The notes: generated by a model from the sequence alone, not told the origin. Positions 25,554 through 43,545 are shown, counted from the stretch's first letter. The stretch: DNA of 64,000 bases from Streptosporangiales bacterium (GCA_009379825.1 WHTA01000013.1:1-64000), one strand, 5' to 3'. Program-made: numbers and translations.

Positions 25554-25801
25554 CAGGCCGCCAGCTTCTGCAGGAAGTCGAGCACGTCACCCGTCGTGGT
25601 GATGCTGCGCAGCCCCGGTGCGTCGAAGTTCAGCTCCGCGCCGATCTCGTCCTCCACCCGCAGCGCGAGCTCGGAGAAGTCCAGCGACCGGAAGCCGATG
25701 CTCGCCAGGTCGGTCGACTCGTCGTCGGGCAGGGTAACGCCCTTGGCCGACAGCACGTCGGCCATCAGGTCACGGATCCGCGCACGGTCAAGTGAGGCCA
25801 T
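25553..25801 (-). CDS. Acyl carrier protein
   Basis: An 82-aa acyl-carrier domain. The phosphopantetheine attachment serine lies in IGFRSLDFSELAL, about residue 43; RSL replaces the more usual DSL. The protein is acidic with the expected four-helix pattern. It is the first gene of the ACP-ligase-SDR operon, divergent from pseH across 115 bp. The frame extends upstream, but ATG 25801 gives a normal ACP length. Confidence 0.85.
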   Translation of the reverse strand: MASLDRARIRDLMADVLSAKGVTLPDDESTDLASIGFRSLDFSELALRVEDEIGAELNFDAPGLRSITTTGDVLDFLQKLAA

Positions 25802-25916: not shown

Positions 25917-26438
25917 GTGTTACGTGACGCCACGACGGCGGACCTCGCCGACATCAGGAGCTGGCGCAATCACGAGCAGGTCCGAGCGGTCAGCTTGACC
26001 TCGCACGAGATCAGCGCCGAGGAGCACCGGAACTGGTGGACGGTGGTCCGCAGTGACCCCGCCCGCCGGACGCTCGTCTACGAGCAGTCCGGCGTCCCCA
26101 GCGGTGTGGTCAACTTCTTCGACCTCGACCCGGCCGCCCGCACCTGTGCCTGGGGTTTCTTCCTCGACCTCGCCGGGCTGGACGAACGCGGCGAGACGCT
26201 GCCGGCCTGGCTCGAGGTGCAGCGCGAGGCGCTCGACTACGCCTTCGGCGTGTTGGACGTCGACGTGCTCACCGGCGAGGTGCTGGAACACAACACGGTC
26301 GTGCGGCGGATGAACAAGCGCTTCGGCTTCACCGAAGGTGAGCCACAGATGCGCGACGGCGACGGCCAGCCGGTCGTCGTGTACCCGATCCGGCTGCACC
26401 GCGACGACCGCAGGGCCCGCAAGGAGAGCAACGCATGA
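25917..26438 (+). CDS. pseH: PseH-like UDP-aminosugar N-acyltransferase
   Basis: GNAT enzyme of 173 aa. PseH acetylates the 4-amino group of UDP-4-amino-4,6-dideoxy-N-acetyl-beta-L-altrosamine in pseudaminic acid synthesis. The N-terminal DLADIRSWRNHEQVR and the C-terminal LEHNTVVRRMNKRFGFTEG are typical of PseH/RimJ-like sugar acetyltransferases. Its stop overlaps the ATG of pseI. Because an ACP and ligase are divergently encoded next door, its acyl donor may not be acetyl-CoA. Confidence 0.82.
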   Translation: MLRDATTADLADIRSWRNHEQVRAVSLTSHEISAEEHRNWWTVVRSDPARRTLVYEQSGVPSGVVNFFDLDPAARTCAWGFFLDLAGLDERGETLPAWLEVQREALDYAFGVLDVDVLTGEVLEHNTVVRRMNKRFGFTEGEPQMRDGDGQPVVVYPIRLHRDDRRARKESNA

Positions 26439-27490
26439 CCGCTGCCCCCGTGCCGTTCGGCAAGTACGAGATCGGGCCGGACCAGCCGCCGCTGATCATC
26501 GCCGAGGTGTCGGGCAACCACAACGGCCGGCTCGACCGCGCGCTCGACATCGTGCGGGCCGTCGCCGACAGCGGCGCGCAGGCGGTGAAGCTCCAGACGT
26601 ACACGGCCGACACCATCACCGTGGACGTGGACGGCCCGCTGTTCCGGCTGTCGTCCGACCACGAGCTGTGGGCGGACAGGAACCTGTACCAGCTCTACAC
26701 CGAGGCGCACACGCCGTGGGAGTGGCACGAACCGATCTTCGAGCTCGCCACCGACCTCGGCCTGGTCGCGTTCTCCTCGCCGTTCGACCCCACCGCCGTG
26801 GACTTCCTGGAACGGCTGGACGCGCCCGCGTACAAGGTGGCCTCCTCGGAGATCGTCGACCTGCCGTTGGTACGGCGGATGGCGGAGACCGGCAAGCCGC
26901 TGGTCATCTCCACCGGCATGGCCAGCCTCGCGGAGATCGACGCCGCCGTACGCACCGCACGCTCGGCCGGCAACGACCAGCTCGTGGTGCTCGGGTGCAC
27001 GGCCTCGTACCCGGCGCCACCCGAGCACAGCAACCTGCGCAGCCTGCGGGTGCTCGCGGACGCGTTCGGCGTGCACGCGGGACTGTCCGACCACACGCCT
27101 GGCATCGGCGCCGCGGTGGCCGCGGTCGCCCTCGGCGCCGTCGCGGTGGAGAAGCACGTGACGCTGGACCGCGGCGACGGCGGCGTGGACTCCGCGTTCT
27201 CGCTGGAACCGACCGAGCTCGCGACACTGCGGCGGGAGACGGAGACCGCGTGGCGGGCGCTCGGCAGCACGGACATCGGCCCGGTGGCGTCCGAGGCGGA
27301 GGGCCTGCGCTTCCGGCGCTCGCTGTTCGTGGTGGCGGACGTCCGCGCGGGCGACGAGGTGACGTCGGCGAACGTCCGGTCGATCCGGCCGGCCGGCGGC
27401 CTGCCGCCTGCGGCCATCGACGACGTACTCGGCCGGACGTTCCGCAAGGACGCCGCGAAGGGCACCCCACTCGGCTGGGACCTGCTGTAG
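26435..27490 (+). CDS. pseI: Pseudaminic acid synthase
   Basis: NeuB-family condensing enzyme (351 aa) that joins phosphoenolpyruvate with 2,4-diacetamido-2,4,6-trideoxy-L-altrose to give pseudaminic acid. The N-terminal TIM barrel shows IIAEVSGNHNG, AVKLQTYTADT, SSPFDPTAVDFLE, and SDHTPG followed by VEKHVTLDR. A C-terminal SAF (antifreeze-like) domain contains RSLFVVADVRAGDEVT. The length is as expected. It is coupled to pseH by an ATGA overlap. Confidence 0.93.
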   Translation: MTAAPVPFGKYEIGPDQPPLIIAEVSGNHNGRLDRALDIVRAVADSGAQAVKLQTYTADTITVDVDGPLFRLSSDHELWADRNLYQLYTEAHTPWEWHEPIFELATDLGLVAFSSPFDPTAVDFLERLDAPAYKVASSEIVDLPLVRRMAETGKPLVISTGMASLAEIDAAVRTARSAGNDQLVVLGCTASYPAPPEHSNLRSLRVLADAFGVHAGLSDHTPGIGAAVAAVALGAVAVEKHVTLDRGDGGVDSAFSLEPTELATLRRETETAWRALGSTDIGPVASEAEGLRFRRSLFVVADVRAGDEVTSANVRSIRPAGGLPPAAIDDVLGRTFRKDAAKGTPLGWDLL

Positions 27491-29575: not shown

Positions 29576-30429
29576 CCCGACCGAGCTTCGGCATCATGAC
29601 CGCCCCCTCCCAGGTCGAGTACCACGACGTACTGCGGGTGTGGCGTGAGGCAGACGAGGTCCCGGAGATCGAGCACGCCTGGCTGTTCGACCACCTGCTG
29701 CCGATCTTCGGCGACCCGAACGGCCCGACCTACGAGGGCTGGACGCTGCTCGCGGCGCTCGCCGCGCAGACCCGACGGCTCCGCCTCGGGCTGCTCGTGA
29801 CCAGCAACCGCTTCCGGCCGCCCGCGATGCTCGCCAAGATCGCCGCAACCGTCGACATCGTCAGCGACGGACGGCTCGACTTCGGCATCGGCGCCGGCTC
29901 GCGTACCGACATCCCGTGGGCCCGACGCGAGTACGACGCCCACGGACTCCCGTATGACGACGCGAAACATGCCGTGGCGAGCCTTGCCCAAACCTGCGCC
30001 CTCGTCCGGAGGCTCTGGACGGAGGACGAACCGTTCGACTTCGACGGCCGGCACACCCAGCTCACCGGCGCGTTCTGCAACCCGAAACCCGTTCAGCGCC
30101 CCGGCCCGCCGGTACTCATCGGCGGGCGTGCCGCCAGGACCTTGCGCGTCGCCGCCGAGCACGCCGACCTATGGAACATGCCGGGCGACGACATCGACGA
30201 CGCGACGCTACGCAGCAAGCTGCTGGACCGCTACTGCGCCGAAGTCGGCCGCGACCCCGCCGCGATCACCCGCTCGATCTACCTCCCGGTCGACTACGAC
30301 CGTCCCCAGGACGTCCGTGACTCGACCGGCCGAGCGGTCGACGCCGGCTTCCGGCACATCGTGCTCGGACTCCCCGCGCCCTACCCCACCGACGTCGCAC
30401 GCTGGGTCGCCGACGAGATCATCGGCTAG
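29572..30429 (+). CDS. LLM-class flavin-dependent oxidoreductase
   Basis: Luciferase-like monooxygenase fold, 285 aa. Visible features are HAWLFDHLLPIFGDP, RLRLGLLVTSNRFRPPAMLAK, DIVSDGRLDFGIGAG, and PVLIGGRAARTLRVAAEHADLWN. It probably uses FMN or F420. The GTG at 29572 overlaps the SDR stop. It converges on pseG with a 4-nt overlap. Confidence 0.88.
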   Translation: MTRPSFGIMTAPSQVEYHDVLRVWREADEVPEIEHAWLFDHLLPIFGDPNGPTYEGWTLLAALAAQTRRLRLGLLVTSNRFRPPAMLAKIAATVDIVSDGRLDFGIGAGSRTDIPWARREYDAHGLPYDDAKHAVASLAQTCALVRRLWTEDEPFDFDGRHTQLTGAFCNPKPVQRPGPPVLIGGRAARTLRVAAEHADLWNMPGDDIDDATLRSKLLDRYCAEVGRDPAAITRSIYLPVDYDRPQDVRDSTGRAVDAGFRHIVLGLPAPYPTDVARWVADEIIG

Positions 30430-31463
30430 GCGTGCTGATGCTCGGCGGACAGTACGTCGAGCAGGGCGTCGGCAACCCTCGCCGTGCCGCGGCCGTCGAC
30501 CAGGGCCCAGCCGCGGCGGCGCAGCGCTGCGCGTTCGTCGGCCGAACGCAGCAGCTCGGCCAGCCGGGCGGTGGCCGCCGCCGGGTCGCTGCGTACGTCG
30601 CGCAACGAGCCCAGCCCGGCGACCGCGCCGGTGGCGACCGTCCGCCGGTAGCCGACGAGCTGGTTGTCCGCCACGTACACCACCGCGGCCGCCGCGCCGA
30701 GGCAGAGCAGCTCCCACAGCGAGGTGCCGGACGCGGCGAGCACCAGGTCCGCGCCGAGCACGTGTGCGGCGAGGTCGTCGGTCGGCGGGATCACCGTGAC
30801 CCGCTGCCCGCCGGCCAGCGGCACCGCGTCGACCTCCGCGACCCGGTCGGCAGCGGCCGCGACCACGGTGGCGGTGAACGGCTGCCCGGTCAGCGCCAGC
30901 GCGCGGCAGAGCACCGGCGCAGCGCCGAACGCATCGGTGCCGCCGAAGAACGCCAGCACATGAGGCACGCCAGGTTCGGCGCCGGTGCCCGGCTGCGCGG
31001 GACGCGCTTGCGCGATCTCGGCACGCAGCATCGCGTACCGCAGCCCGGCCAGCCGCACTGCGCCCGCGGGCAGGTCGACCGGCGCGTCCTCCGCGCCGAG
31101 GTTCTGGTCGACGTACAGGTCGGCGCGGTGGCCGGCCAGCTCGCCGTCCACGATCGCGAGCACGGGCACACCCGCCGCCTGGAAGCCCTCGGACACCTCG
31201 GCCGGCAACAGGTACGAGTCGAGCACCACGGCGGCCGGCTGCCGACCGAGCACCGCACGCAGGTACGCGCTCGGGTCGTCTGCGGACGCGACCACCTGGA
31301 ACCCCCGCCGCCGCAGCTGCGCACCCGCCCACGGCAGGTCAGCCACCGAGGCGAAGAACACCGGACGCAGACCGCGCGCCGCGACCGCCTCGGCCAGCGC
31401 GATGCAGCGCATCACGTGGCCCACCCCGATCTGCGGGCCGGCGTCGCAGCAGAACGCGACCAT
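30426..31463 (-). CDS. pseG: UDP-2,4-diacetamido-2,4,6-trideoxy-L-altropyranose hydrolase
   Basis: GT-B-fold hydrolase (345 aa) that removes UDP to give the free sugar used by PseI. Motifs are GVGHVMRCIALAEA with the family histidine near the N-terminus, FFGGTDAFG, and ASGTSLWELLCLGA near the C-terminus. ATG 31463 aligns with the usual PseG N-terminus; a TTG at 31478 overlapping the pseF stop (TTGA) is an alternative. It is the second gene of the pseF-pseG operon. Confidence 0.9.
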   Translation of the reverse strand: MVAFCCDAGPQIGVGHVMRCIALAEAVAARGLRPVFFASVADLPWAGAQLRRRGFQVVASADDPSAYLRAVLGRQPAAVVLDSYLLPAEVSEGFQAAGVPVLAIVDGELAGHRADLYVDQNLGAEDAPVDLPAGAVRLAGLRYAMLRAEIAQARPAQPGTGAEPGVPHVLAFFGGTDAFGAAPVLCRALALTGQPFTATVVAAAADRVAEVDAVPLAGGQRVTVIPPTDDLAAHVLGADLVLAASGTSLWELLCLGAAAAVVYVADNQLVGYRRTVATGAVAGLGSLRDVRSDPAAATARLAELLRSADERAALRRRGWALVDGRGTARVADALLDVLSAEHQHA

Positions 31464-31474
31464 CCGGGGCGCGG

Positions 31475-32227
31475 TCAACCTGCTTCCAGCACCTTCTGCT
31501 CGACGTGCGCGTTGAGCTCGACCATCTCCGGCCGCGACCGCAGGAACGCCACCACCTCTGGCAGCGCGGCCGGCCGGTCGCCGAGCTCCGCCACCATCGC
31601 CTCGAGCATGGCGAGGTCGTCGGTCGTGTCCAGGGTGACGCGCAGGTCAGCGGCGTTCGGCTGGATACCGAGACCGAGCAGCTGGTACCGACCCGGGTTG
31701 GTGTAGATGCCGGACGTGACGTGCGTACGGTGATGCGCCTCGGCGATCCCGTCCAGCTCGCGCAGCGCCTCGCCGCGTACCACCTCGACGTCCATGCCGC
31801 GCGGCACGCACCGCGGCATGGCAGTGCTCACGTAGTCGAGCCACGGCGCGGCTCGCCAGCTGGCGACCGACGCGGCGACGAGCGTGGGATCGAGCAACGG
31901 ACAGTCTGCAGTGAACCGCGCGATGGCGTCCGGCTTGAGGTTCTCAGTCGCGGTCAGGAACCTGCCGAGCACGTCGTCCGCGTCGCCGCGCGCGACGGCT
32001 ACGCCGAGCCGCTCGCACTCCGCGACGATCGGGGCGTCGTCGGAGTCCGTGGTCGTGGCCACGATCAGCTCGTCGAGGCAGTCGGCTACACGTACGGCAC
32101 GCACCACCCACCCGAGCACGCTGCGCCCTGCCAACGGGTGCAGCACCTTGCCGGGCAGTCTGGTGGATCCCATGCGCGCCTGTAGGACGCCGACGACGGT
32201 GGGGCTACCGCCTTCGTAGTTGTTCAT
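31475..32227 (-). CDS. pseF: Pseudaminic acid cytidylyltransferase
   Basis: Nucleotidyltransferase (250 aa) that makes CMP-pseudaminic acid. It has VLQARMGSTRLPGKVLHPLAG (CTP-binding N-terminus), ARGDADDVLGRFL, and the FTADCPLLDP acidic motif. The pattern is of the SpsF/PseF type. ATG 32227 was chosen; two other in-frame starts lie just upstream. It diverges from pseB across about 170 bp. Confidence 0.88.
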   Translation of the reverse strand: MNNYEGGSPTVVGVLQARMGSTRLPGKVLHPLAGRSVLGWVVRAVRVADCLDELIVATTTDSDDAPIVAECERLGVAVARGDADDVLGRFLTATENLKPDAIARFTADCPLLDPTLVAASVASWRAAPWLDYVSTAMPRCVPRGMDVEVVRGEALRELDGIAEAHHRTHVTSGIYTNPGRYQLLGLGIQPNAADLRVTLDTTDDLAMLEAMVAELGDRPAALPEVVAFLRSRPEMVELNAHVEQKVLEAG

Positions 32228-32396: not shown

Positions 32397-33377
32397 GTGT
32401 CGATACTCAATGGCTCGGACATCCTCGTCACCGGCGGGACCGGCTCCTTCGGGAAGACGTTCATCCGCCACGTGCTCGACAACTACGAGCCGCGTCGCAT
32501 CGTGGTCATCTCCCGGGACGAGCTGAAGCAGTACGAGGCCCGTCAGCTCTTCGAAGACGACCCGCGGTTGCGCTGGTTCCTCGGCGACATCCGCGACCGC
32601 GACCGGCTGATGCGCGCCATGCACGGCGTCGACTACGTCGTGCACGCGGCCGCACTGAAGCAGGTCGACACGGCGGAGTACAACCCGTTCGAGTACGTAC
32701 GCACGAACGTGACCGGCTCGCAGAACGTCGTCGAGGCGGCGATCGACTCGGGCGTGCAGAAGGTCGTCGCGCTGTCGACCGACAAGGCGTCGAGCCCGAT
32801 CAACCTCTACGGCGCGACCAAGCTCGTGGCGGACAAGCTCTTCGTGTCGGCGAACCACTACGCCGCCAACCACCCGACCCGCTTCGCGGTCGTCAGGTAC
32901 GGGAACGTGATGGCCAGCCGCGGCTCGGTGATCCCGTTCTTCCGCAAGCTCGGCGCGGAGGGCAAGTCGCTGCCGATCACCGACAAGCGGATGACCAGGT
33001 TCTGGATCACCCTCGACCAGGCGGTGCAGTTCGTCGTCGACTCGTTCGAGCTGATGGCCGGCGGCGAGCTCTACGTGCCGCGCATCCCGAGCATGAAGCT
33101 CGTCGACCTGGCCCAGGCGATCGCGCCGGACGCGCCGATGCACGAGATCGGGGTGCGGCCGGGCGAGAAGCTGCACGAGGAGATGGTGTCGCCCGAGGAG
33201 GGCAGGCGCGCGCTGCAGCTCGGTGACAGGTACGTCCTGCAGCCGACGATCGCGACCTGGGGTTACGAACCGCCGAAGGACGGCGTCGCACTGTCGGACG
33301 GCTTCGCGTACCGTTCCGACACCAACGACCTCTGGCTCGACGTGGACCAGATCCGCGACATGCTGCCCGAACTCTGA
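32397..33377 (+). CDS. pseB: UDP-N-acetylglucosamine 4,6-dehydratase (inverting)
   Basis: SDR-type dehydratase/5-epimerase (326 aa) catalysing the first step of pseudaminic acid synthesis. Visible motifs are TGGTGSFGKTF (NADP loop), AAALKQVDTAEYNPFE, and DKASSPINLYGATK with the active-site Tyr and Lys. GTG 32397 has GGAAGG upstream; the frame is open further upstream, but those residues do not fit the family. pseC follows after 21 nt. Confidence 0.95.
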   Translation: MSILNGSDILVTGGTGSFGKTFIRHVLDNYEPRRIVVISRDELKQYEARQLFEDDPRLRWFLGDIRDRDRLMRAMHGVDYVVHAAALKQVDTAEYNPFEYVRTNVTGSQNVVEAAIDSGVQKVVALSTDKASSPINLYGATKLVADKLFVSANHYAANHPTRFAVVRYGNVMASRGSVIPFFRKLGAEGKSLPITDKRMTRFWITLDQAVQFVVDSFELMAGGELYVPRIPSMKLVDLAQAIAPDAPMHEIGVRPGEKLHEEMVSPEEGRRALQLGDRYVLQPTIATWGYEPPKDGVALSDGFAYRSDTNDLWLDVDQIRDMLPEL

Positions 33378-33398: not shown

Positions 33399-34523
33399 AT
33401 GCTGCCGTACGGCCGCCAGTCCGTCACCGCCGAAGACATCGCCGCGGTGACGGAGGTGTTGCAGGGTGACTGGCTCACCACCGGGCCAGCCGTGCGTACG
33501 TTCGAGGAGCAGCTGGGCGCCTGGGCCGGCGGCACCGAGTGCGTGACGGTGACGTCGGGGACGGCCGCCTTGCACACGGCGTACGCCGCCTGCCGGGTCG
33601 GCCACGGCGACGAGGTCGTCACCACCCCCATGACGTTCGTCGCCACCGCGTCGTGCGCGTCGATCCTCGGCGCCACACCGGTCTTCGCCGACATCGACCT
33701 GGCCACCGGCCTGCTCGACCCGGAGGCGGCGAAGGCGGCCACCAGCTCCCGCACCCGCGCCGTCACGGCGGTCGACTACGCCGGCCAGCCCGCCGACTAC
33801 GACGCGCTGCGTCAGGTCACGGACGCCTGCGGTGCGCTGCTGATCGCGGACGCGGCCCACTCCATCGGCTCGCGGTACCGCGGCCGGGCGGTCGGCTCCG
33901 TCGCCGACGTCACGACGTTCTCGTTCTTCCCCACGAAGAACCTCACCACGGCAGAGGGCGGCGCGGTGGCGACACCGCATGCGGACATCGCCACCCGTGC
34001 CAGGCGGTTCCGCACCATCGGCCTGGTGCGTGACCACGGCGACCTGCGGTACCCGGACGAGGGCGGCTGGCACCAGGAGGTGCACGAGTTCGGGGTGAAC
34101 TACCGGCTCCCCGACGTGCTCTGCGCGCTCGGCCTCGCCCAGCTGAACCGGCTGGCGGCGTTCCGCAGCCGCCGGCTCGCGCTCGTAGAGCGGTACCGCG
34201 AGCTGCTCGCCGGCGTCGACGGCATCCAGCTGCTCGAGCAGCGCGCGGACTCCGAGGCCACCTGGCACCTGTTCCCCGTACGCGTGCTAGACGGCCGCAG
34301 ACGCGAGGTCTACGAGAAGATGCGCGCGGCCGGCATCGGGGTGCAGGTCAACTACGTCCCCGTCTACTGGCACCCGGTGTACGCCGACCTCGGCTACCGG
34401 CGCGGCCTGTGCCCGAACGCCGAGCAGTTCTACGCCGAGGAGCTCTCGCTGCCGTTGTTCCCCGACCTCACCCAGGCCGACCAGGACCGCACCGTCGAGG
34501 CGCTCGTCGCGGCGTTGGGCTGA
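33399..34523 (+). CDS. pseC: UDP-4-amino-4,6-dideoxy-N-acetyl-beta-L-altrosamine transaminase
   Basis: DegT/DnrJ/EryC1-type PLP aminotransferase (374 aa), second step of pseudaminic acid synthesis. It has GDWLTTGPAVRTFEE near the N-terminus, ADAAHSIGSRYRG, and SFFPTKNLTTAEGG with the PLP lysine. The C-terminal half shows GVNYRLPDVLCALGLAQL. Length and motifs match PseC. The gene after it begins only 4 nt later. Confidence 0.94.
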   Translation: MLPYGRQSVTAEDIAAVTEVLQGDWLTTGPAVRTFEEQLGAWAGGTECVTVTSGTAALHTAYAACRVGHGDEVVTTPMTFVATASCASILGATPVFADIDLATGLLDPEAAKAATSSRTRAVTAVDYAGQPADYDALRQVTDACGALLIADAAHSIGSRYRGRAVGSVADVTTFSFFPTKNLTTAEGGAVATPHADIATRARRFRTIGLVRDHGDLRYPDEGGWHQEVHEFGVNYRLPDVLCALGLAQLNRLAAFRSRRLALVERYRELLAGVDGIQLLEQRADSEATWHLFPVRVLDGRRREVYEKMRAAGIGVQVNYVPVYWHPVYADLGYRRGLCPNAEQFYAEELSLPLFPDLTQADQDRTVEALVAALG

Positions 34524-34527
34524 CCTC

Positions 34528-35580
34528 GTGCACCACATCAACTACTTCTACGGGCATGCGCACGTACTCGCGCGCTACGCGGGGCTGGCGGACTGGTGCG
34601 ACCCGCCGCGCATCTGGGGGTACCTGCAGCACGGCTGGAACGTCCATCATGGCTTCGACCCGCGCGCCGACCTGGCGCCTGGCGTGCCGAAGCTGGTGTG
34701 GTCGGACGGGCCGCGCGCCCGGGGCCACGAGCTCGGCCTGCGCGACTACCACGTCCTCGGCGCCCCGTGGGCGTACCTGCTCGCGCTCGCGCCGCAGGAC
34801 GAGCACGCCGGCGAACGCCGCGGCACGATCGTCTACCCGTTCCACGGCTGGGAGAAGCAACCGGTCACCGGCGACCACCGCAGGCTCGCCGCGACCATCA
34901 GGGCGCACGAGAGCGGGCCGGTCACCGTCTGCCTGTACTGGCTGGAGTACCAGACCCCGGACGTCAGGCGCAGCTACGAGCGCGCCGGCTTCCGGGTGAT
35001 CACGCACGGCAGGCGCGGCCGCGGCCGGCACGACGCCAACGTGGACTTCCTCCACCGGCAGCTCGCCGAACTGCGCCGGCACCGCCGGGTGGTTTCGAAC
35101 CGCCTCAGCACCGCCGTGCTCTACGGCGCGTCGGTCGGCTGCGAGGTCGGGGTGTACGGCGACCCGATGCGGCTCGCCGACGACGACATCGTGCCCGGCG
35201 GTGCCGAGCGCATCCGCACCGAGTGGGCGGAGATGCACGGCCACGTCGTACCGACCGACGTGGCGGAGAAGGTGGCCAGGCAGGAGCTCGGCCTCGGCCA
35301 CCGACGGGAGCCGGCGGAGATCGTCGACCTGGTGGGCTGGCAGGAGGCGCACGACGAGCGGACCGGGAGGACGTTCGTCGCAGTACCCTCTCCACCCGCC
35401 GGTGAGGACCGGCCGAGCGAGCTGCACGCACAGCTGCGGTGGCTCGACCGGGTCGTGCAAGAGCGGGATGCCGAGTTACGGCGGGTACGCACGTCCACCA
35501 GCTACCGGGTCGGGAACCGGCTGGTCCGGTCGGCAGGTGCGGTGTGGCGAAGGCTGTTCCGGAGAGGAGCTGGGCGATGA
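34528..35580 (+). CDS. Putative GT-B-like glycosyltransferase of the pse cluster
   Basis: A 350-aa protein without a clear family match. It has no signal peptide or membrane segment. The central VVSNRLSTAVLYGASVGCEVGVYGDP resembles the nucleotide-sugar-binding half of GT-B transferases of the sialyl/capsular type. The C-terminal 50 residues form a basic coiled coil (LHAQLRWLDRVVQERDAELRRVR), a tail common in actinobacterial glycan enzymes. It lies between pseC and another transferase-like gene, coupled by an ATGA overlap. A role as nonulosonate transferase is inferred. Confidence 0.5.
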   Translation: MHHINYFYGHAHVLARYAGLADWCDPPRIWGYLQHGWNVHHGFDPRADLAPGVPKLVWSDGPRARGHELGLRDYHVLGAPWAYLLALAPQDEHAGERRGTIVYPFHGWEKQPVTGDHRRLAATIRAHESGPVTVCLYWLEYQTPDVRRSYERAGFRVITHGRRGRGRHDANVDFLHRQLAELRRHRRVVSNRLSTAVLYGASVGCEVGVYGDPMRLADDDIVPGGAERIRTEWAEMHGHVVPTDVAEKVARQELGLGHRREPAEIVDLVGWQEAHDERTGRTFVAVPSPPAGEDRPSELHAQLRWLDRVVQERDAELRRVRTSTSYRVGNRLVRSAGAVWRRLFRRGAGR

Positions 35581-37250
35581 GGCTACAGGCCCAGGGCAGG
35601 GAGTTCGACAGGTTCTGTAGCACCGCGGAGGTGTTCTGGCGGAACAACGTCCAGCGTCACACCACCGGCGACGAACGGTGGATCCTGGTCGAGGCACTGC
35701 ACCAGGACATCCGCGTGTCGCTGCGCAACCTCACCGTCGCGAACGCACTGCGGCGGATCTTCCCCGCCAAGCTCGCCGTGCTCACCGGTACCGACGAGGA
35801 CTGGTACGCGGCGCTGTGGAGCGACTTCGACGTCGCCAAGGTCGAGGAGCTCGCCCGTGCCTACGGCGCCGATGCCGTCATCGACATCCACAGCATCATC
35901 GACAAGCGGCTCGCCGCCGGCATCGACGTACCCGACACCATCGACGTGGCCGGCCAGCGGATCCCGATGGACGGTGCGCCGAACGGGATCGACCCCACCC
36001 AGCTCGACCACGTGGTGCGGGCCACCGCGTGCCGGGTGCTGCGGGTGCCGCGGCTGAGCGCCGCCGACATGGACGGCGAGGCGTACACACGGGTGCGCGG
36101 CCGCAGCGCCGAGTTCTCCCGCGTCTACGACGCGCTCTGCCACTCGCTGCAGCCGGCCGCCCTGGTCACCAGCCACGTCGACTACAACCACTGGGGTCTC
36201 GCCGTGGAGTCCGCGACCAGGTTCGCCGTGCCGGTCGTGCACGTGCAGAGCACCGGCTCGCTGAAGGCGTACACGCTGTTCCCCGAACACGCGACCGGCA
36301 CCCGCACCTTCCGCGGCGAGCTCACCGTGCAGATCGGCGAGTACTTCGAGAAGTACCTCTGGGCGAACCGGGAGAAGATCAGGCGCAGCGCGGAGCTGGT
36401 CGCGTGGCGGGCGAAGGGCAACCTCGGCCGGCCGTCGTGGTGGCGTGCAGGCAGCAGCGCGACGATGGACCTGGCCACGGCGACCGAGCGCGCCCAGCTG
36501 CGGCTGCACGCCGTGGACCGGATGGGTTTCGACCGCGACAAGCCCGTCGTCGCCGTCTTCAACCACGCGGTCTCCGACGCGCTGAACACGAACCTCGAGA
36601 CGTTCGACGACCTCGCCGGCTGGTTCGAGGAGACTGCGGCGTACGCGCGGGAGCGCACGGACGTCAGCTGGCTGTTCCTCGACCACCCGAGCCAGGCGCT
36701 CTACGACGTCACCGGGTTCTTCGACGAGGTGGCCGAACGCCACGCGGACGCCGGCCATATGGCGTTCCGGCCGAGCCGCGCGCTGAGCAAGAACATGCTG
36801 TGGAGCATGCTCGACCTCGGCGTCACCGTGCGCGGCAGCGTCAGCAACGAGCTGCCCGCGTACGGCATCCCGGCAGTGCAGGCCGGCTGGTCGGAGTGGA
36901 GCTCGTGCGGCCTGTCCAGGGTGGCGGCCGACAAGGACGACTACTGGGCCATCCTCGACCACTCGCTCGACTCGCTGTGTGCCGGCGACTCGCTGATCAC
37001 GCAGGAACAGATCGAGCGGGCCCGGCTGTGGCATTGGTTCTACCGCAGCGGCAACGACGTCAGCACACCGCTCGTGCCGCACTGGGACGTCGGCGCCAGC
37101 GACCAGCTGCTGCGGGTGATCCGGATCGCCATGGCCGGCATGGAGTGCGACGGCGACCCGGCGTTCACCGCCACCCGGCGGATGTGGGAACGCAGGGAGC
37201 CGTTCCTCACCCGAATCGACCTGACCGCGTTGGAAGCGAGCGACCTATGA
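35577..37250 (+). CDS. Putative capsule-type glycosyltransferase of the pse cluster
   Basis: A 557-aa protein with no signal peptide. The C-terminal half reads as a GT-B sugar-nucleotide domain: SWLFLDHPSQALYD, then NMLWSMLDLGVTVRGSVSNELPAYGIPAVQAGWSEWSSCGL. This is like the KpsC/KpsS-type and capsule synthesis proteins, which transfer Kdo, another ulosonic acid. The ATG overlaps the previous stop, and its own stop overlaps the next start. It is a strong candidate to transfer pseudaminic acid from CMP, but this is inference. Confidence 0.5.
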   Translation: MRLQAQGREFDRFCSTAEVFWRNNVQRHTTGDERWILVEALHQDIRVSLRNLTVANALRRIFPAKLAVLTGTDEDWYAALWSDFDVAKVEELARAYGADAVIDIHSIIDKRLAAGIDVPDTIDVAGQRIPMDGAPNGIDPTQLDHVVRATACRVLRVPRLSAADMDGEAYTRVRGRSAEFSRVYDALCHSLQPAALVTSHVDYNHWGLAVESATRFAVPVVHVQSTGSLKAYTLFPEHATGTRTFRGELTVQIGEYFEKYLWANREKIRRSAELVAWRAKGNLGRPSWWRAGSSATMDLATATERAQLRLHAVDRMGFDRDKPVVAVFNHAVSDALNTNLETFDDLAGWFEETAAYARERTDVSWLFLDHPSQALYDVTGFFDEVAERHADAGHMAFRPSRALSKNMLWSMLDLGVTVRGSVSNELPAYGIPAVQAGWSEWSSCGLSRVAADKDDYWAILDHSLDSLCAGDSLITQEQIERARLWHWFYRSGNDVSTPLVPHWDVGASDQLLRVIRIAMAGMECDGDPAFTATRRMWERREPFLTRIDLTALEASDL

Positions 37251-38464
37251 CGACGACCTCGCCAGCCGCGTTCGGCATCGGCACGGACTTCGACCAGCCG
37301 ACGCAGGTGCTCCCGGTGCCGGGAGCGGTCACGAGCGGTGGGCAGCCGGAGCTGAAGCTCGTCGACGGTCTCACCCGCGGCGACGGGGTCGTCGGCCGGT
37401 TCGAGACCAGCCCCGGCCTGTTCGCCGTCAAGGTCGCGGAGCCGACCGGGCCGGTGCGGGTCACCGTCGAGCTGGCCGCGGACGCCGAGACCGCGGCCTG
37501 GTGGGAACGGCTGGTGCCGGAACACGTCCAGCCGCGCACGCCGCACGGCGCCCGGCTGCTCGCCGTACGGGCGCAGGGCGCGACCCGCGGCACGGTGCTG
37601 CTGGCGCGCCGCGTCACCGACTTCGGGCTGCGTGCACGGCAACGGGTCAGCTTCCCGCTTGCTGCGGAAGAGCTGCCCGCCGACGGCTTCCTGGTGATCG
37701 ACGTCACCGAGGTCGAGGCGCACGTCCCCGCGTGGGCGGAGCCGACCACCGAGCGGCCGGCCGTCGGCGTGCGCGTGGACGCCGTACACGCCACGCCGAC
37801 CGGGCCGGAGCCGCCGATGCCCACCCGGCCCGGCGCCACCCTGGACGCGCCAACGTGTGACCGGCTCGGCCTGATCGCTGCGGGCGGCAGCACCGAGAGC
37901 ACGGCCATCGACGTACGGGCGGACTACTTCGTGGCACAGCCGATGCCGGCGGTGCCAGGGCCGGTCACGTGGACGCTGCAGCCACAGCTGGTCGGCGAGG
38001 TGCGTCCCGACCCGGCGCGGCCGGGCCGGGGCAGCCTGGTGTTCCCGAAGCCGGCGCCCGGCCAGCCACCACTGTCCACCAGGCAGAAGGCGCAGCTGGT
38101 CGCACAGCACGAGCTGGGGAACTTCGGCACCGACCTGCGCCGGCGAATGCGGCACCTCGCCGTCCGTGGCGTACGCAAGGCTGCCCGGCCGCTCGACCAG
38201 GGCCTCAGCTCGCGCACGGGCGCGGAGCTGCTGGCCCGCGGCCAGCTCCGCGCCGTGCTGGTGCCGATCGGGTCGAGCCGGCAGCTGCCCTGTCAGATCA
38301 CCGCGGCTGCCGGCGGCCGGATCGCCGTCACCTGCACCGAGCCACCGGACGGCGCCGCGCTCGTCCACCTGGGCGTGGTCGCCACCGACGGCGGGCCGCT
38401 GACCCGTCTCGCCGACCGGCGGATGCACTGGCAGCTGGTATCCGCGAGGTACGGGCAGGCATGA
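37247..38464 (+). CDS. Unknown protein of the pse cluster
   Basis: Not recognised. The protein has 405 aa, no signal peptide and no membrane segment. It is rich in short hydrophobic beta-like stretches (for example VRVTVELAADAETAAWW, GFLVIDVTEVEAHV, RIAVTCTEPP) separated by Pro/Gly loops, with one basic helical stretch (about 290-320, LVAQHELGNFGTDLRRRMRHLAVRGVRKAAR). The ATGA overlap with the upstream transferase gene argues for a joint function. Confidence 0.55.
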   Translation: MTTTSPAAFGIGTDFDQPTQVLPVPGAVTSGGQPELKLVDGLTRGDGVVGRFETSPGLFAVKVAEPTGPVRVTVELAADAETAAWWERLVPEHVQPRTPHGARLLAVRAQGATRGTVLLARRVTDFGLRARQRVSFPLAAEELPADGFLVIDVTEVEAHVPAWAEPTTERPAVGVRVDAVHATPTGPEPPMPTRPGATLDAPTCDRLGLIAAGGSTESTAIDVRADYFVAQPMPAVPGPVTWTLQPQLVGEVRPDPARPGRGSLVFPKPAPGQPPLSTRQKAQLVAQHELGNFGTDLRRRMRHLAVRGVRKAARPLDQGLSSRTGAELLARGQLRAVLVPIGSSRQLPCQITAAAGGRIAVTCTEPPDGAALVHLGVVATDGGPLTRLADRRMHWQLVSARYGQA

Positions 38465-38586
38465 GTAGCGAAGGAGCTGAGGAGCTGGCCAGAGGTAGGG
38501 GCCGCGTTGCGGCCTTGGTGGTCAGCCAGGCCACCGCGGCACCTGTCGGAGGACAGCGATCGAAGCGGTCGCGGAGGAACGGATGA
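38461..38586 (+). CDS. Possible 41-aa coupled small ORF
   Basis: A 41-codon frame begins at an ATGA overlap with the preceding gene and ends at an ATGA overlap with the next one. That is neat architecture for a coupled gene. Against it, third-position G/C is only about 68 percent, far below the neighbours, and the peptide is compositionally plain (MSSEGAEELARGRGRVAALV and a basic C-terminus). The next gene has its own GGAGG inside this frame. It may be spacer DNA. Confidence 0.25.
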   Translation: MSSEGAEELARGRGRVAALVVSQATAAPVGGQRSKRSRRNG

Positions 38587-39698
38587 GCGAGACGACCGAC
38601 CTGGCTACCGCAACCGTGCCCGAGCATCAGCCGACGCTGACCGACGACCCGCACGAGAACACCGCCATCCTGCGTGAGCTGCTGGCCACCGCGACGCCCG
38701 GGCGCATCCACGTCGCGGCCGGCCGCCATCCGCTCGCCGAGGGGCTCGTGCTGACCGACGGCTGGTCGCTGCACGGCCCGCCAGGTGGGCTACCGCGGGC
38801 GACCCTGGCGCAGGTCGAGCCGGTCGAGCAACCGTTCGTGCACATCCTCGGCTCCCGGTGCAGCATCTCCGACCTGCGCCTCGAGCTGCCGGCCGCGTAT
38901 CCCGGCCCGCACGACGGCGACCGCTGGACGGCCGTCACCGTCGGCCAGTACCTCTATCCGGCTACCGCGGACTGGCTGGCCGACGTCTCGCTGCAGCGGA
39001 TCCACGTACTCCGCGCCGGGCGGTGCGCGGCCAACAGCATCGCCGTGATGGGTGCCGTACGCCGGATCCACCTCGCCGAGGTGCATGTCAGCGGTGGCGG
39101 CACCGGCGTCGCCGCGCACTGGGGCGCGCCCGGCGAGAGCGTGGACGACCTCACCGGCCCAACGTACCACCCGCACCAGCTGACCATCGAGGACCTGTAC
39201 GTACGCAAGGCGTTCGAGGGCTTCTACCTGAGCTCCGTACACGACGTCACGGTCGAGCGGGCACGGATGTCCGGCGTGGAGATCGGCTTCCGGCTGTTGC
39301 CCGGCGACAACACCGACCGGTTCCACGAGTCCCCGGGCGAGTCGCAGGTCAGCTCCCGGATCTCCGTCTCGGACTGCGAGATCGGCTGGATCGGGGGGCT
39401 GTACGCGCTCCGGGTGGCCGGCTGGGGGCAGAGCGAAGTGGACAGCGAGATCAGCCAGCTCGACTACCGCGACCTCACCATCTCCGACATCGTCGTCCAC
39501 CCGTGGCCGCAGCCGGACGCCGAGGCGACCGAAGGACGCGCGGCCGTAGTGGTCGAGAACGCCGGCCGGGTCGCGTTCCACCGGATCGGCCTCGCCAGCA
39601 GCACGGACGTCGTACCCGTACGGCTCGACGGCGAGGAGCTTCCGCTGTCTAGCCTCACCGACGCGGTGGATAGGATGTCGCGGCAGGGAGACCGGTAG
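38583..39698 (+). CDS. Parallel beta-helix protein, pectate-lyase-like fold
   Basis: A 371-aa protein made of repeated beta-helix rungs with short I/V-x-V/I patterns (ISDLRLELP, IHLAEVHVSGG, LTIEDLYVRKA, VTVERARMSGVEI, ISVSDCEIGW). The repeats run from about residue 90 to 345. No signal peptide is visible. Such folds occur in polysaccharide lyases, epimerases and glycan-binding proteins. ATG 38583 has GGAGG 5 nt upstream. As the last gene of the pseB operon, it may modify or recognise the glycan; the activity is unknown. Confidence 0.6.
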   Translation: MSETTDLATATVPEHQPTLTDDPHENTAILRELLATATPGRIHVAAGRHPLAEGLVLTDGWSLHGPPGGLPRATLAQVEPVEQPFVHILGSRCSISDLRLELPAAYPGPHDGDRWTAVTVGQYLYPATADWLADVSLQRIHVLRAGRCAANSIAVMGAVRRIHLAEVHVSGGGTGVAAHWGAPGESVDDLTGPTYHPHQLTIEDLYVRKAFEGFYLSSVHDVTVERARMSGVEIGFRLLPGDNTDRFHESPGESQVSSRISVSDCEIGWIGGLYALRVAGWGQSEVDSEISQLDYRDLTISDIVVHPWPQPDAEATEGRAAVVVENAGRVAFHRIGLASSTDVVPVRLDGEELPLSSLTDAVDRMSRQGDR

Positions 39699-39802: not shown

Positions 39803-40003
39803 TTGGTCGGCAGACAGGGCCGGGTCACCGGCAAGATCGCGACCGGTCTTGTCGGCGAGGTGATGCTCGAGGTCCGTGGCGGCGTCGAAGCGTTCTATGC
39901 GTACCCGACGGTTCCGGACGAGAGCTTCGAAGAGGGCCAGATCGTGGTGGTCACCGAATACCATCCGCCGCGCACAATCTACGTGACAGCGGCGTACGGC
40001 TGA
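39803..40003 (+). CDS. Short NfeD-like OB-fold protein
   Basis: A 66-aa protein equal to the C-terminal soluble OB domain of NfeD (RQGRVTGKIATGLVGEVMLEV, then EGQIVVVTEYHPPRTIYVTAA). It lacks the protease and membrane parts of long NfeD. The TTG start is supported by GGAGGG at 6 nt. NfeD proteins pair with flotillins; the next gene is a flotillin, 96 nt downstream. Confidence 0.7.
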   Translation: MVGRQGRVTGKIATGLVGEVMLEVRGGVEAFYAYPTVPDESFEEGQIVVVTEYHPPRTIYVTAAYG

Positions 40004-40099
40004 TCGGAGCCATCGACGAGTTGACCCCGTCCCACTCCACACCGAACGTCTGACTGGACCTGCCCGGGGGACGGCCCCCGGTCGACGAAGGAGTGAACG

Positions 40100-41593
40100 T
40101 TGCTGTTAACCAGTTATCTCTACATCGCTGCGGCGGTGGTGGTCGCGGTCATCGTGATCGTGATCATCTTCCGCCTGGTCTGGAAGGTCGCAGAACCGAA
40201 CGAGGCCCTGATCATCTCCGGCCTCGGCGCCCGAGGCGAACGCACCGGCGCCGCCGAGAGCCTCGGCTTCAAGATCATTACCGGTAAGGGCGCTATGGTG
40301 ATGCCCGGCTTCCAGACCGCCCGCCGGCTGCTGCTCGACTCCCGCGCCGCGTCCCTCGAGGTCGAGTGCGTGACCAAGCAAGGTATTCCCGTGAGTATCC
40401 AGGGCGTCGTCATCTACAAGGTCGGCGACGACTTCGTCTCCATCGCGAACGCCGCGCGCCGGTTCCTCGACCAGCAGAAGCAGATGGACGAGACCATCCA
40501 CGAGCTGTTCACCGGCCACCTGCGGTCGATCATAGGGAATCTCACCGTCGAAGACCTGCTGCTCAACCGCGAGCAGCTGACCTCGGAGATCCGTAGCTCG
40601 TCGGCCAACGAGATGAGCAAACTCGGCCTGATCGTCGACTCGCTGCAGATCCAGGAGATCCAGGACCACTCCGGTTACATCGAGAACATCGGCAAGCCGC
40701 ACGCGGCCGCCATCTCCGCCCAGGCGAGGATCGCGGAGGCCGAGCGCGACCAGGAGGCGACCAAGTCCGAGCAGGTCGCCGCCGCGGAGAAGGCGCTGTC
40801 GATCAGGGACAGTCAGATCAAGCAGGCGTCGTACCAGGCCGAGGTCGACAAGGCCGCCGCCACTGCGCGGCAGGCGGGCCCGCTGTCCGAGGCCACCGCA
40901 CGGCAGGACGTCATCCGGGCGGAGACCGAGGGCGCCGAGCTGTCCGCACAGCTGGCCGAGCAGAAGCTGCAGTCCGAGGTCCGTAAGCCGGCCGACGCGA
41001 AGGCGTACGAGACCAGGACGCTGGCCGACGCGCAGCGCGACGCGCGCATCTCCTCGGCCGAGGCCGAGGCGCGGGAGACCGAGCTGCGGGCGAACGCGGA
41101 CGCGATGCGCGTACAGACCTCCGCGAACGCCGACGCCGAGGCGACCAAGATGCGTGGTGACGCCGAGGCGCACGCCACCCGGGCGACCGGTGAGGCGGAC
41201 GCGGCTGCGGCCCAGGCCCGCGGTCTGGCCGAGGCCGAGGCGGCGAAGGCCAAGGGCCTCGCCGAGGCCGAGGCGATTCAGGCCAGGGCGAACGCGCTGG
41301 CGGAGAACCAGGAAGCCGTCGTCGCCCAGCAGCTGGCGGAGAAGTGGCCGGAGATCGTGTCGGCCGGCGCCCAGGCGCTCGGCAACGTCGACCACATGGT
41401 CGTGCTCAACGGCGCGGACGGCGTATCGGACATGCTCGCGAAGGCGCTGACCCTGGGCGGCACCGGCATGGGGCTCGCCAAGACGCTGCTGAACTCCATG
41501 AGGGAGGACGGCACGGTGCCGGCCAGCACCAACGGCACCGCGCAGGACAGCACCGCACCGGCGCCCGCCACCGACGCGGCCGCCGCCAGCTGA
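40100..41593 (+). CDS. floT: Flotillin-family (SPFH) membrane scaffold protein
   Basis: A 497-aa protein with an N-terminal membrane segment (about 8-28), an SPFH/band-7 domain (about 35-200) and a long Ala/Glu-rich coiled coil with many AEA repeats (about 210-420), ending in a Ser/Thr/Ala tail. Flotillins organise functional membrane microdomains. The TTG at 40100 has AAGGAG 6 nt upstream. Confidence 0.9.
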   Translation: MLLTSYLYIAAAVVVAVIVIVIIFRLVWKVAEPNEALIISGLGARGERTGAAESLGFKIITGKGAMVMPGFQTARRLLLDSRAASLEVECVTKQGIPVSIQGVVIYKVGDDFVSIANAARRFLDQQKQMDETIHELFTGHLRSIIGNLTVEDLLLNREQLTSEIRSSSANEMSKLGLIVDSLQIQEIQDHSGYIENIGKPHAAAISAQARIAEAERDQEATKSEQVAAAEKALSIRDSQIKQASYQAEVDKAAATARQAGPLSEATARQDVIRAETEGAELSAQLAEQKLQSEVRKPADAKAYETRTLADAQRDARISSAEAEARETELRANADAMRVQTSANADAEATKMRGDAEAHATRATGEADAAAAQARGLAEAEAAKAKGLAEAEAIQARANALAENQEAVVAQQLAEKWPEIVSAGAQALGNVDHMVVLNGADGVSDMLAKALTLGGTGMGLAKTLLNSMREDGTVPASTNGTAQDSTAPAPATDAAAAS

Positions 41594-41620
41594 CGAGGCA
41601 GCACCCACGGAAGGGCACGC

Positions 41621-42124
41621 ATGGCTGAAACCAACCCGCAGCCCTTCCGGGTGTGCTTCGTCTGCACCGGCAACATCTGTCGCTCGCCGATGGCCGAGGT
41701 CGTGTTCCGCTCCCACGTGGAGCGGGCCGGCCTCGGCCATGCGGTCGCCGTGGCCAGCGCGGGTCTCGGCTCGTGGCACGTCGGGGACCCACCGGAGCAC
41801 GGCACCGTCGAGGTGCTCGCGCAGCACGGCCTGGACGGCTCACAGCTGCGCGCTCGCCAGTTCCGGCCGGCCGAGCTCGGCACGCTCGACCTCGTCATCG
41901 GCCTGGATCGCGGCCACCTACGGGCGCTGCAACAACACGCCGGCCAGCATGCCGACAAGGTACGGCTGCTGCGCGACTACGACCCGGACGCCGACGGGCC
42001 GGACGTGCCAGACCCGTACGGCGGACCACTGCGCGACTTCGAGCACGTCTACCGGCTGACCGAGGCGGCCATGCCGGGTCTGCTCGACGCGGTCCGCAAC
42101 GACCTGGACCGTATCTCCCGCTGA
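41621..42124 (+). CDS. Low-molecular-weight protein tyrosine phosphatase
   Basis: A 167-aa cytoplasmic phosphatase. The P-loop is CTGNICRS with nucleophile C15 and R21 (CX5R), and the general acid aspartate is in VPDPYGG near residue 128. Such enzymes often act on bacterial tyrosine kinases of capsule synthesis, which would suit the pse locus upstream, but no kinase gene is seen. Confidence 0.92.
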   Translation: MAETNPQPFRVCFVCTGNICRSPMAEVVFRSHVERAGLGHAVAVASAGLGSWHVGDPPEHGTVEVLAQHGLDGSQLRARQFRPAELGTLDLVIGLDRGHLRALQQHAGQHADKVRLLRDYDPDADGPDVPDPYGGPLRDFEHVYRLTEAAMPGLLDAVRNDLDRISR

Positions 42125-42135
42125 CCGGCGCCCAG

Positions 42136-42141
42136 TAGGGT
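42136..42141 (+). promoter_or_regulatory. -10 element (TAGGGT) of the carbonic anhydrase gene
   Basis: TAGGGT fits TANNNT and ends 7 nt before the GTG at 42149, predicting a leaderless mRNA. No clear -35. Confidence 0.4.
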
Positions 42142-42148
42142 TCTGCCC

Positions 42149-42643
42149 GTGGCCGCACGCACTTCAGACGAGATGTTCACCCACGCCAGTACGCGCGCGC
42201 CGGTCAAGGTGGCTGACCTCCCTCGCGCGCCTGCGAGGCGCGTCGCGGTGCTGACGTGCATGGACGCGAGAATCGACCTGGCCGCACTGTTCGGCCTGGC
42301 CCTCGGCGACGCGAACGTGTTGCGCAACGCCGGCGGCGTCGTCACCGCCGACGTCCGGCGGACCCTCGCGATCAGCCAGCGGTTGCTCGGCACGACGGAG
42401 ATCGTGGTGCTCGGCCACACCGGCTGCGGCATGCTCGACGTCGACGACCAGGAGTTCACCGCCGTCCTCAGGGAGGAGACCGGCCAGGTGCCCGACTGGC
42501 CGGTGGCGGGCTTCCGCGACCTGGACGAGCGGGTGCGGCAGTCCGTCGCGGAGCTGGCCGCCGATCCGTTCCTGCCGGCCAGGGACGTCATCCGCGGCGT
42601 CGTCTACGACCTCGCCAGCGGCGAGGTGCGCGAGGTGCGCTGA
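42149..42643 (+). CDS. Beta-class carbonic anhydrase
   Basis: A 164-aa zinc enzyme for CO2/bicarbonate interconversion. Metal and catalytic residues are visible: CMDARID (C37, D39, R41) and GHTGCGM (His and Cys ligands). The central ANVLRNAGGVVTADVRRTLAIS is typical of the short actinobacterial members. The GTG start is supported by the -10 element just upstream. Confidence 0.92.
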   Translation: MAARTSDEMFTHASTRAPVKVADLPRAPARRVAVLTCMDARIDLAALFGLALGDANVLRNAGGVVTADVRRTLAISQRLLGTTEIVVLGHTGCGMLDVDDQEFTAVLREETGQVPDWPVAGFRDLDERVRQSVAELAADPFLPARDVIRGVVYDLASGEVREVR

Positions 42644-42647
42644 CCGG

Positions 42648-42653
42648 TAGCGT
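42648..42653 (+). promoter_or_regulatory. -10 element (TAGCGT) of the kinase-like gene
   Basis: TAGCGT fits TANNNT and ends 7 nt before the ATG at 42661, again suggesting leaderless transcription. Confidence 0.35.
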
Positions 42654-42660
42654 CGGGGCC

Positions 42661-43545
42661 ATGCCAGGTAGGAGTGCTCTCCCCGACGTCGCCAACCGGC
42701 TGCTCGGTCAGCCGACGCAGGACTGGCAGCCGGTAGGCGGCGGCTGCATCGGCGACTGCGCCCGGGTCACGCTCACCGACGGCCGGTCGGTGTTCGTGAA
42801 GACGATGGCCGACCCGCCGGCGCACTTCTTCGCCGCAGAGGCGGCCGGCCTGCGCTGGCTCGCCGAGGCAGGCGGTCCGCCCGTCCCCGAGGTACTGGCA
42901 GCCGGCGAGGACGGTATCGCGCTCGCGTGGGTGCCTACGGCAGGCGCGTCCGCCACGGCGGCGGAGCAGCTGGGCGGCGAGCTTGCGCGGATGCACGCGG
43001 CCGGCGCGGACTCGTTCGGCGCGCCGTGGTCCGGCTTCATCGGGTCGCTGCCGATGGACAACTCGCCCGCCGCCGACTGGCCCACCTTCTACGCCGAGCG
43101 GCGGCTGCTGCCGTACGCAAGGCAGGCGTTCGACCGCGGCCACCTCGACGCCGACCAGCTGGCCCTGGTGGAACGCGTCGCGGACCGGCTCGGCGAGCTG
43201 GCCGGCCAGGCGGAACCGCCGGCGCGGATCCACGGCGACCTGTGGAGCGGCAACCTGCACTGGGCGGCGGACGGCCGTTGCTGGCTGCTCGACCCGGCGG
43301 CGCACGGCGGCCACCGGGAGACCGACCTGGCGATGCTCGCGCTGTTCGGCGCCCCGCATCTCGACCGCCTAGTGGACGCGTACCGCGAGGCGGCCACGGA
43401 CCTCGGCGCACCACTGGCCGACGGCTGGCGCGACCGGATACCGCTGCACCAGCTCTGGCCGTTGCTCGTGCACGCCGTGCTCTTCGGCAGCGGCTACGGC
43501 GCGCAGGCGGCGGCCGCCGCGCGTACGGCGTTGCGCACCAACTGA
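42661..43545 (+). CDS. Fructosamine kinase-family protein
   Basis: A 294-aa kinase-fold protein of the fructosamine-3-kinase/ketosamine kinase family, involved in protein deglycation or sugar-amine salvage. The GGGCIGDCARVTL glycine loop is followed by FVKTM with the ATP lysine. The catalytic loop is HGDLWSGNLHW, and the metal motif region DPAAHGGHRETDLAML matches the family strongly. The stop is 26 nt before the next gene. Confidence 0.87.
   Translation: MPGRSALPDVANRLLGQPTQDWQPVGGGCIGDCARVTLTDGRSVFVKTMADPPAHFFAAEAAGLRWLAEAGGPPVPEVLAAGEDGIALAWVPTAGASATAAEQLGGELARMHAAGADSFGAPWSGFIGSLPMDNSPAADWPTFYAERRLLPYARQAFDRGHLDADQLALVERVADRLGELAGQAEPPARIHGDLWSGNLHWAADGRCWLLDPAAHGGHRETDLAMLALFGAPHLDRLVDAYREAATDLGAPLADGWRDRIPLHQLWPLLVHAVLFGSGYGAQAAAAARTALRTN

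Follow-up and report, generated by a model that had tools for sequence, protein, structure and literature searches.

A Kdo-transferase-related protein and a second GT-B-fold protein encoded behind pseC in a Streptosporangiales bacterium: putative transferases of a pseudaminic acid pathway

Results

Four genes lie behind pseC

The DNA analysed here, a window of 64,000 nucleotides from a Streptosporangiales bacterium (GCA_009379825.1, WHTA01000013.1:1-64000), belongs to a high-GC actinobacterium and carries genes for the synthesis of pseudaminic acid (Pse). Behind pseC, which ends at position 34523, lie four real genes on the plus strand, here called A to D. Gene A (34528..35580, 350 aa, GTG start), which begins after a gap of 4 nt, encodes a protein predicted by AlphaFold2 and Foldseek to have a minimal glycosyltransferase B (GT-B) fold. 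Gene B (35577..37250, 557 aa, ATG start) encodes a putative GT-B transferase resembling KpsC, an assignment made with AlphaFold2, Foldseek and a bridge protein leading to PF05159/KpsC. Gene C (37247..38464, 405 aa) would encode an accessory protein or domain of B, judging from its place after B and from natural B-C fusions, and gene D (38583..39698, 371 aa) a possible right-handed beta-helix protein, with a sub-threshold match to PF12708. A previous reading of the locus from sequence only (the sequence-only reading) had described four genes with nearly continuous overlaps; four open frames are indeed present, with 4-nt overlaps between A and B and between B and C, but D is separated from C by a gap of 118 nt. 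The frames of all four genes are kept in L031 and L032, which come from two more genomes of this genus, in identical order behind pseB-pseC, with identities to the homologues of ~65-70% (A), 79-82% (B), 49-55% (C) and 59-60% (D). Since the third codon position varies more than the first and second in each of A, B, C and D, we regard all four as genuine coding genes.

Protein B is remotely related to the capsule Kdo-transferase group

The AlphaFold2 model of B (predicted local distance difference test, pLDDT, 84.6; predicted template modelling score, pTM, 0.88) contains two Rossmann-like domains, and Foldseek searches with it returned GT-B proteins, with WecB-type epimerases and generic GT-B enzymes on top. 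The model of A (pLDDT 83.8) is a compact GT-B, whose generic matches are GT-B enzymes, UDP-GlcNAc (uridine diphosphate N-acetylglucosamine) 2-epimerases, MurG and TagF. The predicted structures of both proteins are therefore of the GT-B type proposed from the sequence.

The family relation of B emerged from profile comparisons. A profile built from 17 B proteins recovered a single distant relative among 397 genomes of the phylum, a protein of 569 aa from a different lineage (genome G333, L054:1249-2955) that serves as the bridge. The bridge protein scores 23.2 bits against PF05159 (Capsule_synth), above the cut-off of 20, and matches the KpsC structure 6mgb with an E-value of 0.004. Compared with the B profile, it reaches a probability of 96% (E 1.5e-9, 294 columns); pairwise BLASTP between B and the bridge, as a single comparison, gave E 4e-10; and B matched the three-protein family formed by the bridge and two plasmid-borne relatives at 98% (E 4.7e-14). 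Control comparisons with proteins of the G333 locus gave 0.35% for PseG and 0.1% for another GT-B-like protein, and no relation was detected between B and the further controls, namely protein A, other GT-B proteins and a protein X that is described below. The surroundings of the bridge gene (~18 kb) contain pseI (52% identical), a pseC relative and a pseB above its cut-off. By these sequence comparisons, B is remotely but clearly related, via the bridge protein, to KpsC/Capsule_synth, the group of capsule transferases for 3-deoxy-D-manno-octulosonic acid (Kdo), as the sequence-only reading had suspected for one of the two transferases. PF05159 itself was absent from the 120 genomes of the phylum searched for a comparison set.

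The candidate active site of B follows the KpsC/KrkA pattern

Three motifs of the B C-terminal domain, all encoded on the plus strand, align with the HxxxD, KIHP and acidic residue of the bridge protein. H330-x-x-x-D334 (36564..36578), with D334 as candidate nucleophile, directly follows the first strand of the domain in the AlphaFold2 model; L368-D-H370-P371 (36678..36689), a putative motif for binding cytidine monophosphate (CMP), comes after the second strand; and G420-S-V-S-N-E425 (36834..36851), whose S421-V-x-x-E425 is a candidate phosphate/ribose-binding SVxxE spaced as in KrkA, comes after the fourth. In KpsC, a covalent Kdo adduct forms on Asp160 of the invariant QXXXD motif (PMC10148158), and in KrkA the corresponding elements are Asp193, residues 225-228 (SxHP) and, at the CMP, Glu276 together with Ser271-Ser272-Val273; a (K/R)XHP motif is described in the same work (PMC12887879). 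HxxxD, xHP and SVxxE of B have the KpsC/KrkA order and near-equal spacing, the distance from Asp to His being 36 residues in B and 34 in KrkA. The HxxxD motif is present in every full-length member of the B family and gone in short paralogues. A further motif, S-H-x-x-Y-x-x-W-G at residues 199-207 of the N-terminal domain, is common to B and the bridge. Judged from this aligned signature, B probably works like the enzymes of families GT99 and GT107, and because its pattern is that of the capsule Kdo transferases, it probably attaches Pse to a surface polymer.

The short B paralogues of Nonomuraea (L048-L050 and other loci) have neither the catalytic Asp nor the HP and SH..Y..WG motifs and are, owing to these losses, probably inactive; they are still paired with a C protein, as a possible dead-enzyme pair.

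B and A accompany pseudaminic acid genes

Among 299 genomes of the order, B occurs in 38, all 38 of which carry pseB, as against 17 of the 261 genomes without B (Fisher p 3.5e-35, a statistic that, like those that follow, ignores phylogeny). In Nonomuraea, the genus to which G049 belongs (identified by a 100% match of the A gene of one member to N. gerenzanensis), B-C lies outside the pse cluster, and B is found in 38 of 45 pseB-positive and 0 of 10 pseB-negative genomes (p 6.6e-7); counting full-length B only, the figures are 11 of 45 and 0 of 10, which is not significant (p 0.085). B-C is found next to or inside pse loci in the genus of the window and at L033-L036 and L046. Relatives of B are also encoded in nonulosonic acid clusters (neuB / CMP-sugar synthetase) on plasmids of Azospirillum thermophilum and Legionella adelaidensis; all in all, such clusters of Proteobacteria hold distant relatives of both A and B. 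From the co-occurrence with pseB, CMP-Pse is the expected donor for B.

The distribution of A is wider. Of the 24 pse loci long enough for a judgement, 23 contain A, which is mostly followed by protein X; X is absent from the window, and in the genus of the window B occupies its place. On a plasmid of Azospirillum brasilense, a neuB-family gene lies ~7 kb from the gene for a remote but securely matched relative of A (98%, E 1.6e-14). Sequence and alignment searches of Pfam, NCBIfam and the PDB with A gave nothing useful, as was also the case for B, C and D, and neither Pfam nor NCBIfam has a model for it. We regard A as the probable second glycosyltransferase of the pathway. Conservation of the gene order beside pse loci, which the sequence-only reading had offered as a check, thus holds for A, in part for B-C and for D within the genus only; the two outcomes named beforehand as refuting, unrelated folds and no conservation beside pse genes, did not occur.

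Protein X, which follows A in most pse loci (e.g., L033:10888-12888) except in the genus of the window, is ~530-770 aa long, with a coiled-coil-like C-terminus and, in some of its members, weak matches of methyltransferase type. In G606 a second, diverged copy of A adjoins a protein of glycosyltransferase family 2 (GT2) in the same pse locus (L061:13777-16883), beside a protein weakly similar to X (L061:12237-13784).

C probably belongs to the B enzyme, whereas D is confined to the genus

C follows B in every locus read, and the two are fused in four genomes (L037, L040, L041 and L042). The protein evolves fast and, as the sequence-only reading had it, shows no recognisable family in Pfam, NCBIfam or PDB sequence searches. 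It is probably an accessory domain of the B enzyme, with a role perhaps in acceptor or membrane association.

The beta-helix character ascribed to D is barely detectable: its matches to PF12708 (pectate-lyase-like) reach 12-13.9 bits, below the cut-off of 27, with E-values of 0.18 in the window and 0.049 in L031. D occurs in 3 of the 299 genomes, all of the window's genus. No transmembrane-like segment was found in A, B, C or D, and D has no signal-like segment either. The proposal that the module processes the glycan after attachment therefore finds no support, since D lacks an export signal and is genus-confined, with only a sub-threshold pectate-lyase match, and D was rejected as a surface-glycan processor. 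It might work on an intermediate in the cytoplasm or be part of another system.

Downstream of D (39803-43545) are encoded a 66-aa protein, a flotillin and low-molecular-weight phosphatase-like, carbonic-anhydrase-like and kinase-like proteins; this order recurs in L032 and, from the phosphatase onward, in L031.

The window carries a complete-looking pse set

Genes for PseH, I, G, F, B and C are all found in the window, in a complete-looking set. On the plus strand lie those for a PseH-like N-acyltransferase (25917..26438; TIGR03585, 90 bits, cut-off 93), the pseudaminic acid synthase PseI (26435..27490; TIGR03586, 448 bits, cut-off 340), PseB (32397..33377; TIGR03589, 494 bits, cut-off 408) and PseC (33399..34523; TIGR03588, 398 bits, slightly below the cut-off of 424). 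On the minus strand lie those for a PseG-like UDP-sugar hydrolase (30426..31463; TIGR03590, 131 bits, cut-off 154) and a PseF-like CMP-sugar synthetase for donor activation (31475..32227), which matches PF02348 (CTP_transf_3) clearly (E 3.7e-22). PseB and PseI thus reach their equivalog cut-offs, and PseC, PseH and PseG fall just under theirs. PseI is the sole NeuB-family match over the cut-off in the genome, so that Pse is likely its nonulosonic acid.

The PseF-like protein scores far under the PseF cut-off (TIGR03584, 22.6 versus 205.7 bits), as if actinobacterial PseF formed a separate branch. Genes for an acyl carrier protein (ACP), an AMP-binding ligase and a short-chain dehydrogenase/reductase (SDR) adjoin pseH (23594-25765, minus strand); the trio also stands beside pse genes in L060 and is partly seen in L061 and L032, and further pse loci have an ACP-SDR-ligase-LuxE arrangement, some with LuxC. 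Given this proximity, the Pse made here may carry an N-acyl group other than plain acetyl.

Discussion

We favour, with a little better than even confidence, the reading that B, together with C, is a retaining CMP-pseudaminic acid transferase and that A is a second transferase of the same pathway. The earlier interpretation is thereby partly supported, being largely right on A and B. Several results weigh against our reading. The Foldseek TM-scores for B are just 0.2-0.3, so that its subfamily cannot be called from structure, and KpsC, WbbB and KrkA are absent among the 50 matches listed. B and its relatives match no family in Pfam or NCBIfam. A profile search of the PDB with B returned nothing, no direct similarity of B to PF05159 or KpsC was found, and the link runs through the bridge; because the two plasmid members of the bridge family stay under the PF05159 cut-off and the profile of the three proteins failed to recover KpsC in the PDB, it rests on that single protein. 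Two motifs that define GT99/GT107 are altered, with Gln replaced by His in QXXXD (Asp kept) and the basic residue by Leu in (K/R)XHP (LDHP, HP kept), and for this reason we do not file B in either family; no general base was identified in B. The 17 pseB-positive genomes without B mean that B is not a universal Pse transferase, and the neglect of phylogeny in the co-occurrence statistics counts on the same side. A has no HP motif and is carried, in G525, by a genome without pseB, where its neighbours in a polysaccharide cluster include a WecG-type transferase, a flippase and a sugar-phosphate transferase. Finally, no polymerase, exporter or wall-attachment genes were identified in the cluster.

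The breadth of A might be taken to mean that A transfers Pse and that B adds another residue, for example onto the attached Pse, or another ulosonic acid. It is A, rather than B, that almost all pse loci of the order contain, those of pseB-positive genomes without B among them, and the Azospirillum relative of A lies within a neuB cluster. We nevertheless consider this unlikely, if worth serious attention, since the resemblance of A to Kdo and sialyl transferases stops at the GT-B fold, without the HP motif, and A also occurs without pseB, whereas B tracks pseB even where unlinked and bears the CMP-ulosonate signature. A reading in which both proteins transfer Pse, each making one of two linkages of a Pse polymer in the manner of the two KpsC modules for Kdo, would agree with the association of both families with nonulosonic acid genes in several phyla, and no further glycosyltransferase gene is recognised from pseC to the flotillin gene; this arrangement is nonetheless improbable, as CMP-sugar binding by A has no support and no sequence relation between A and B is detectable. 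B could also be a wall-polymer transferase, using CDP-polyols in the manner of TagF (CDP, cytidine diphosphate) or UDP-sugars, that accompanies pse genes by chance, given its generic best structural matches and the GT2 + Glyphos_transf protein in other pse clusters of the order (below). We give this very little credence because the bridge leads to PF05159/KpsC and not to PF04464, an Asp is conserved at the position of the KpsC nucleophile, and B co-occurs with pseB. A chance string of four genes beside pseC, which the restriction of D to one genus and the fast evolution of C might suggest, is hardly credible and, for A-C (D could still be such a case), already contradicted by overlapping starts, by a gene order shared among three genomes, by the fusion of B with C in four, and by the presence of B-C next to pse genes in several more genera.

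As a plausible pathway for a retaining B(+C) transferase, PseB, C, H, G, I and F would make CMP-Pse in the cytoplasm, from which B, helped by C, would move Pse onto a cytoplasmic glycan or lipid-linked precursor. A retaining double displacement, as in KpsC, WbbB and KrkA, is probable, in which D334 would hold the sugar as a covalent adduct until an activated acceptor hydroxyl displaces it. The same polymer would be the substrate of the compact GT-B protein A, which would add to it either Pse or a neighbouring sugar, and the polymer would be exported and attached to the wall through genes elsewhere. A surface glycan as acceptor we infer from the gene context; we likewise infer the donor, stereochemistry, linkage and export, and what C and D do.

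In pse clusters of Streptosporangiaceae (L034:16073-19633, L064, L066 and L070), large proteins are related to a fusion of GT2 with CDP-glycerol glycerophosphotransferase (Glyphos_transf), and a GT2 protein has a weak TarS-linker match. These proteins hint at a teichoic-acid-like Pse wall polymer, which for the window would be an analogy. Tentatively, and with somewhat less than even confidence, we propose that A and B found two new glycosyltransferase families and that B(+C) is an actinobacterial pseudaminyltransferase that acts via a covalent Pse-Asp adduct at HxxxD, is found repeatedly among Streptosporangiales together with pse genes, and makes a cell-wall polymer with Pse in Gram-positive bacteria.

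By sequence and profile searches, A and B represent two families for which Pfam and NCBIfam hold no model, and the literature searched, with most subscription journals outside its coverage, held nothing on Pse transferases of actinobacteria. To our knowledge, very few pseudaminyltransferases are known at all. The proteins are of interest as candidates for the transfer of Pse in the envelopes of actinobacteria and as possible tools for attaching this bacteria-only sugar. Whether a pseudaminyltransferase placed near KpsC uses double displacement is still unclear (PMC12887879), and the question becomes testable with another, independent lineage in which a candidate nucleophile is conserved.

The kind of enzyme is already known, namely KpsC-like ulosonic acid transferases, of which one, KpsS1, is reported for Pse. 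Compared with the retaining beta-Kdo transferases KpsC (GT107) and WbbB (GT99), and with PF05159, B is likewise predicted to be a GT-B protein, has the Asp, HP and acidic motifs in the same order and a remote sequence relation via the bridge, and is expected to use a CMP-activated ulosonic acid donor. It differs in having no Pfam family, in its motifs (HxxxD instead of QXXXD, LDHP instead of (K/R)XHP), in its N-terminal domain, which is longer and of another kind, and in its partner, C. KrkA (GT140), the Kdo transferase of Escherichia coli K13, has an SVxxE much as in B and an HP motif in which the basic residue is also replaced (Ser in KrkA, Leu in B). It belongs to a Gram-negative capsule system with a Kdo donor and has no detectable sequence match to B, but it shows that a GT-B fold of this kind can diverge past sequence recognition. 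KpsS1 (GT118) of Acinetobacter baumannii is a retaining Pse5Ac7Ac transferase of KpsC-like ancestry (PMC12887879). The setting of B differs from it in being actinobacterial and without capsule export genes; the donor CMP-Pse and the KpsC-like ancestry, compared by description only, are those expected of B. The analysis identified no gene set for teichulosonic acid, but by analogy with the teichulosonic acids of actinobacterial walls, a wall polymer containing a nonulosonic acid would be the likely class of product.

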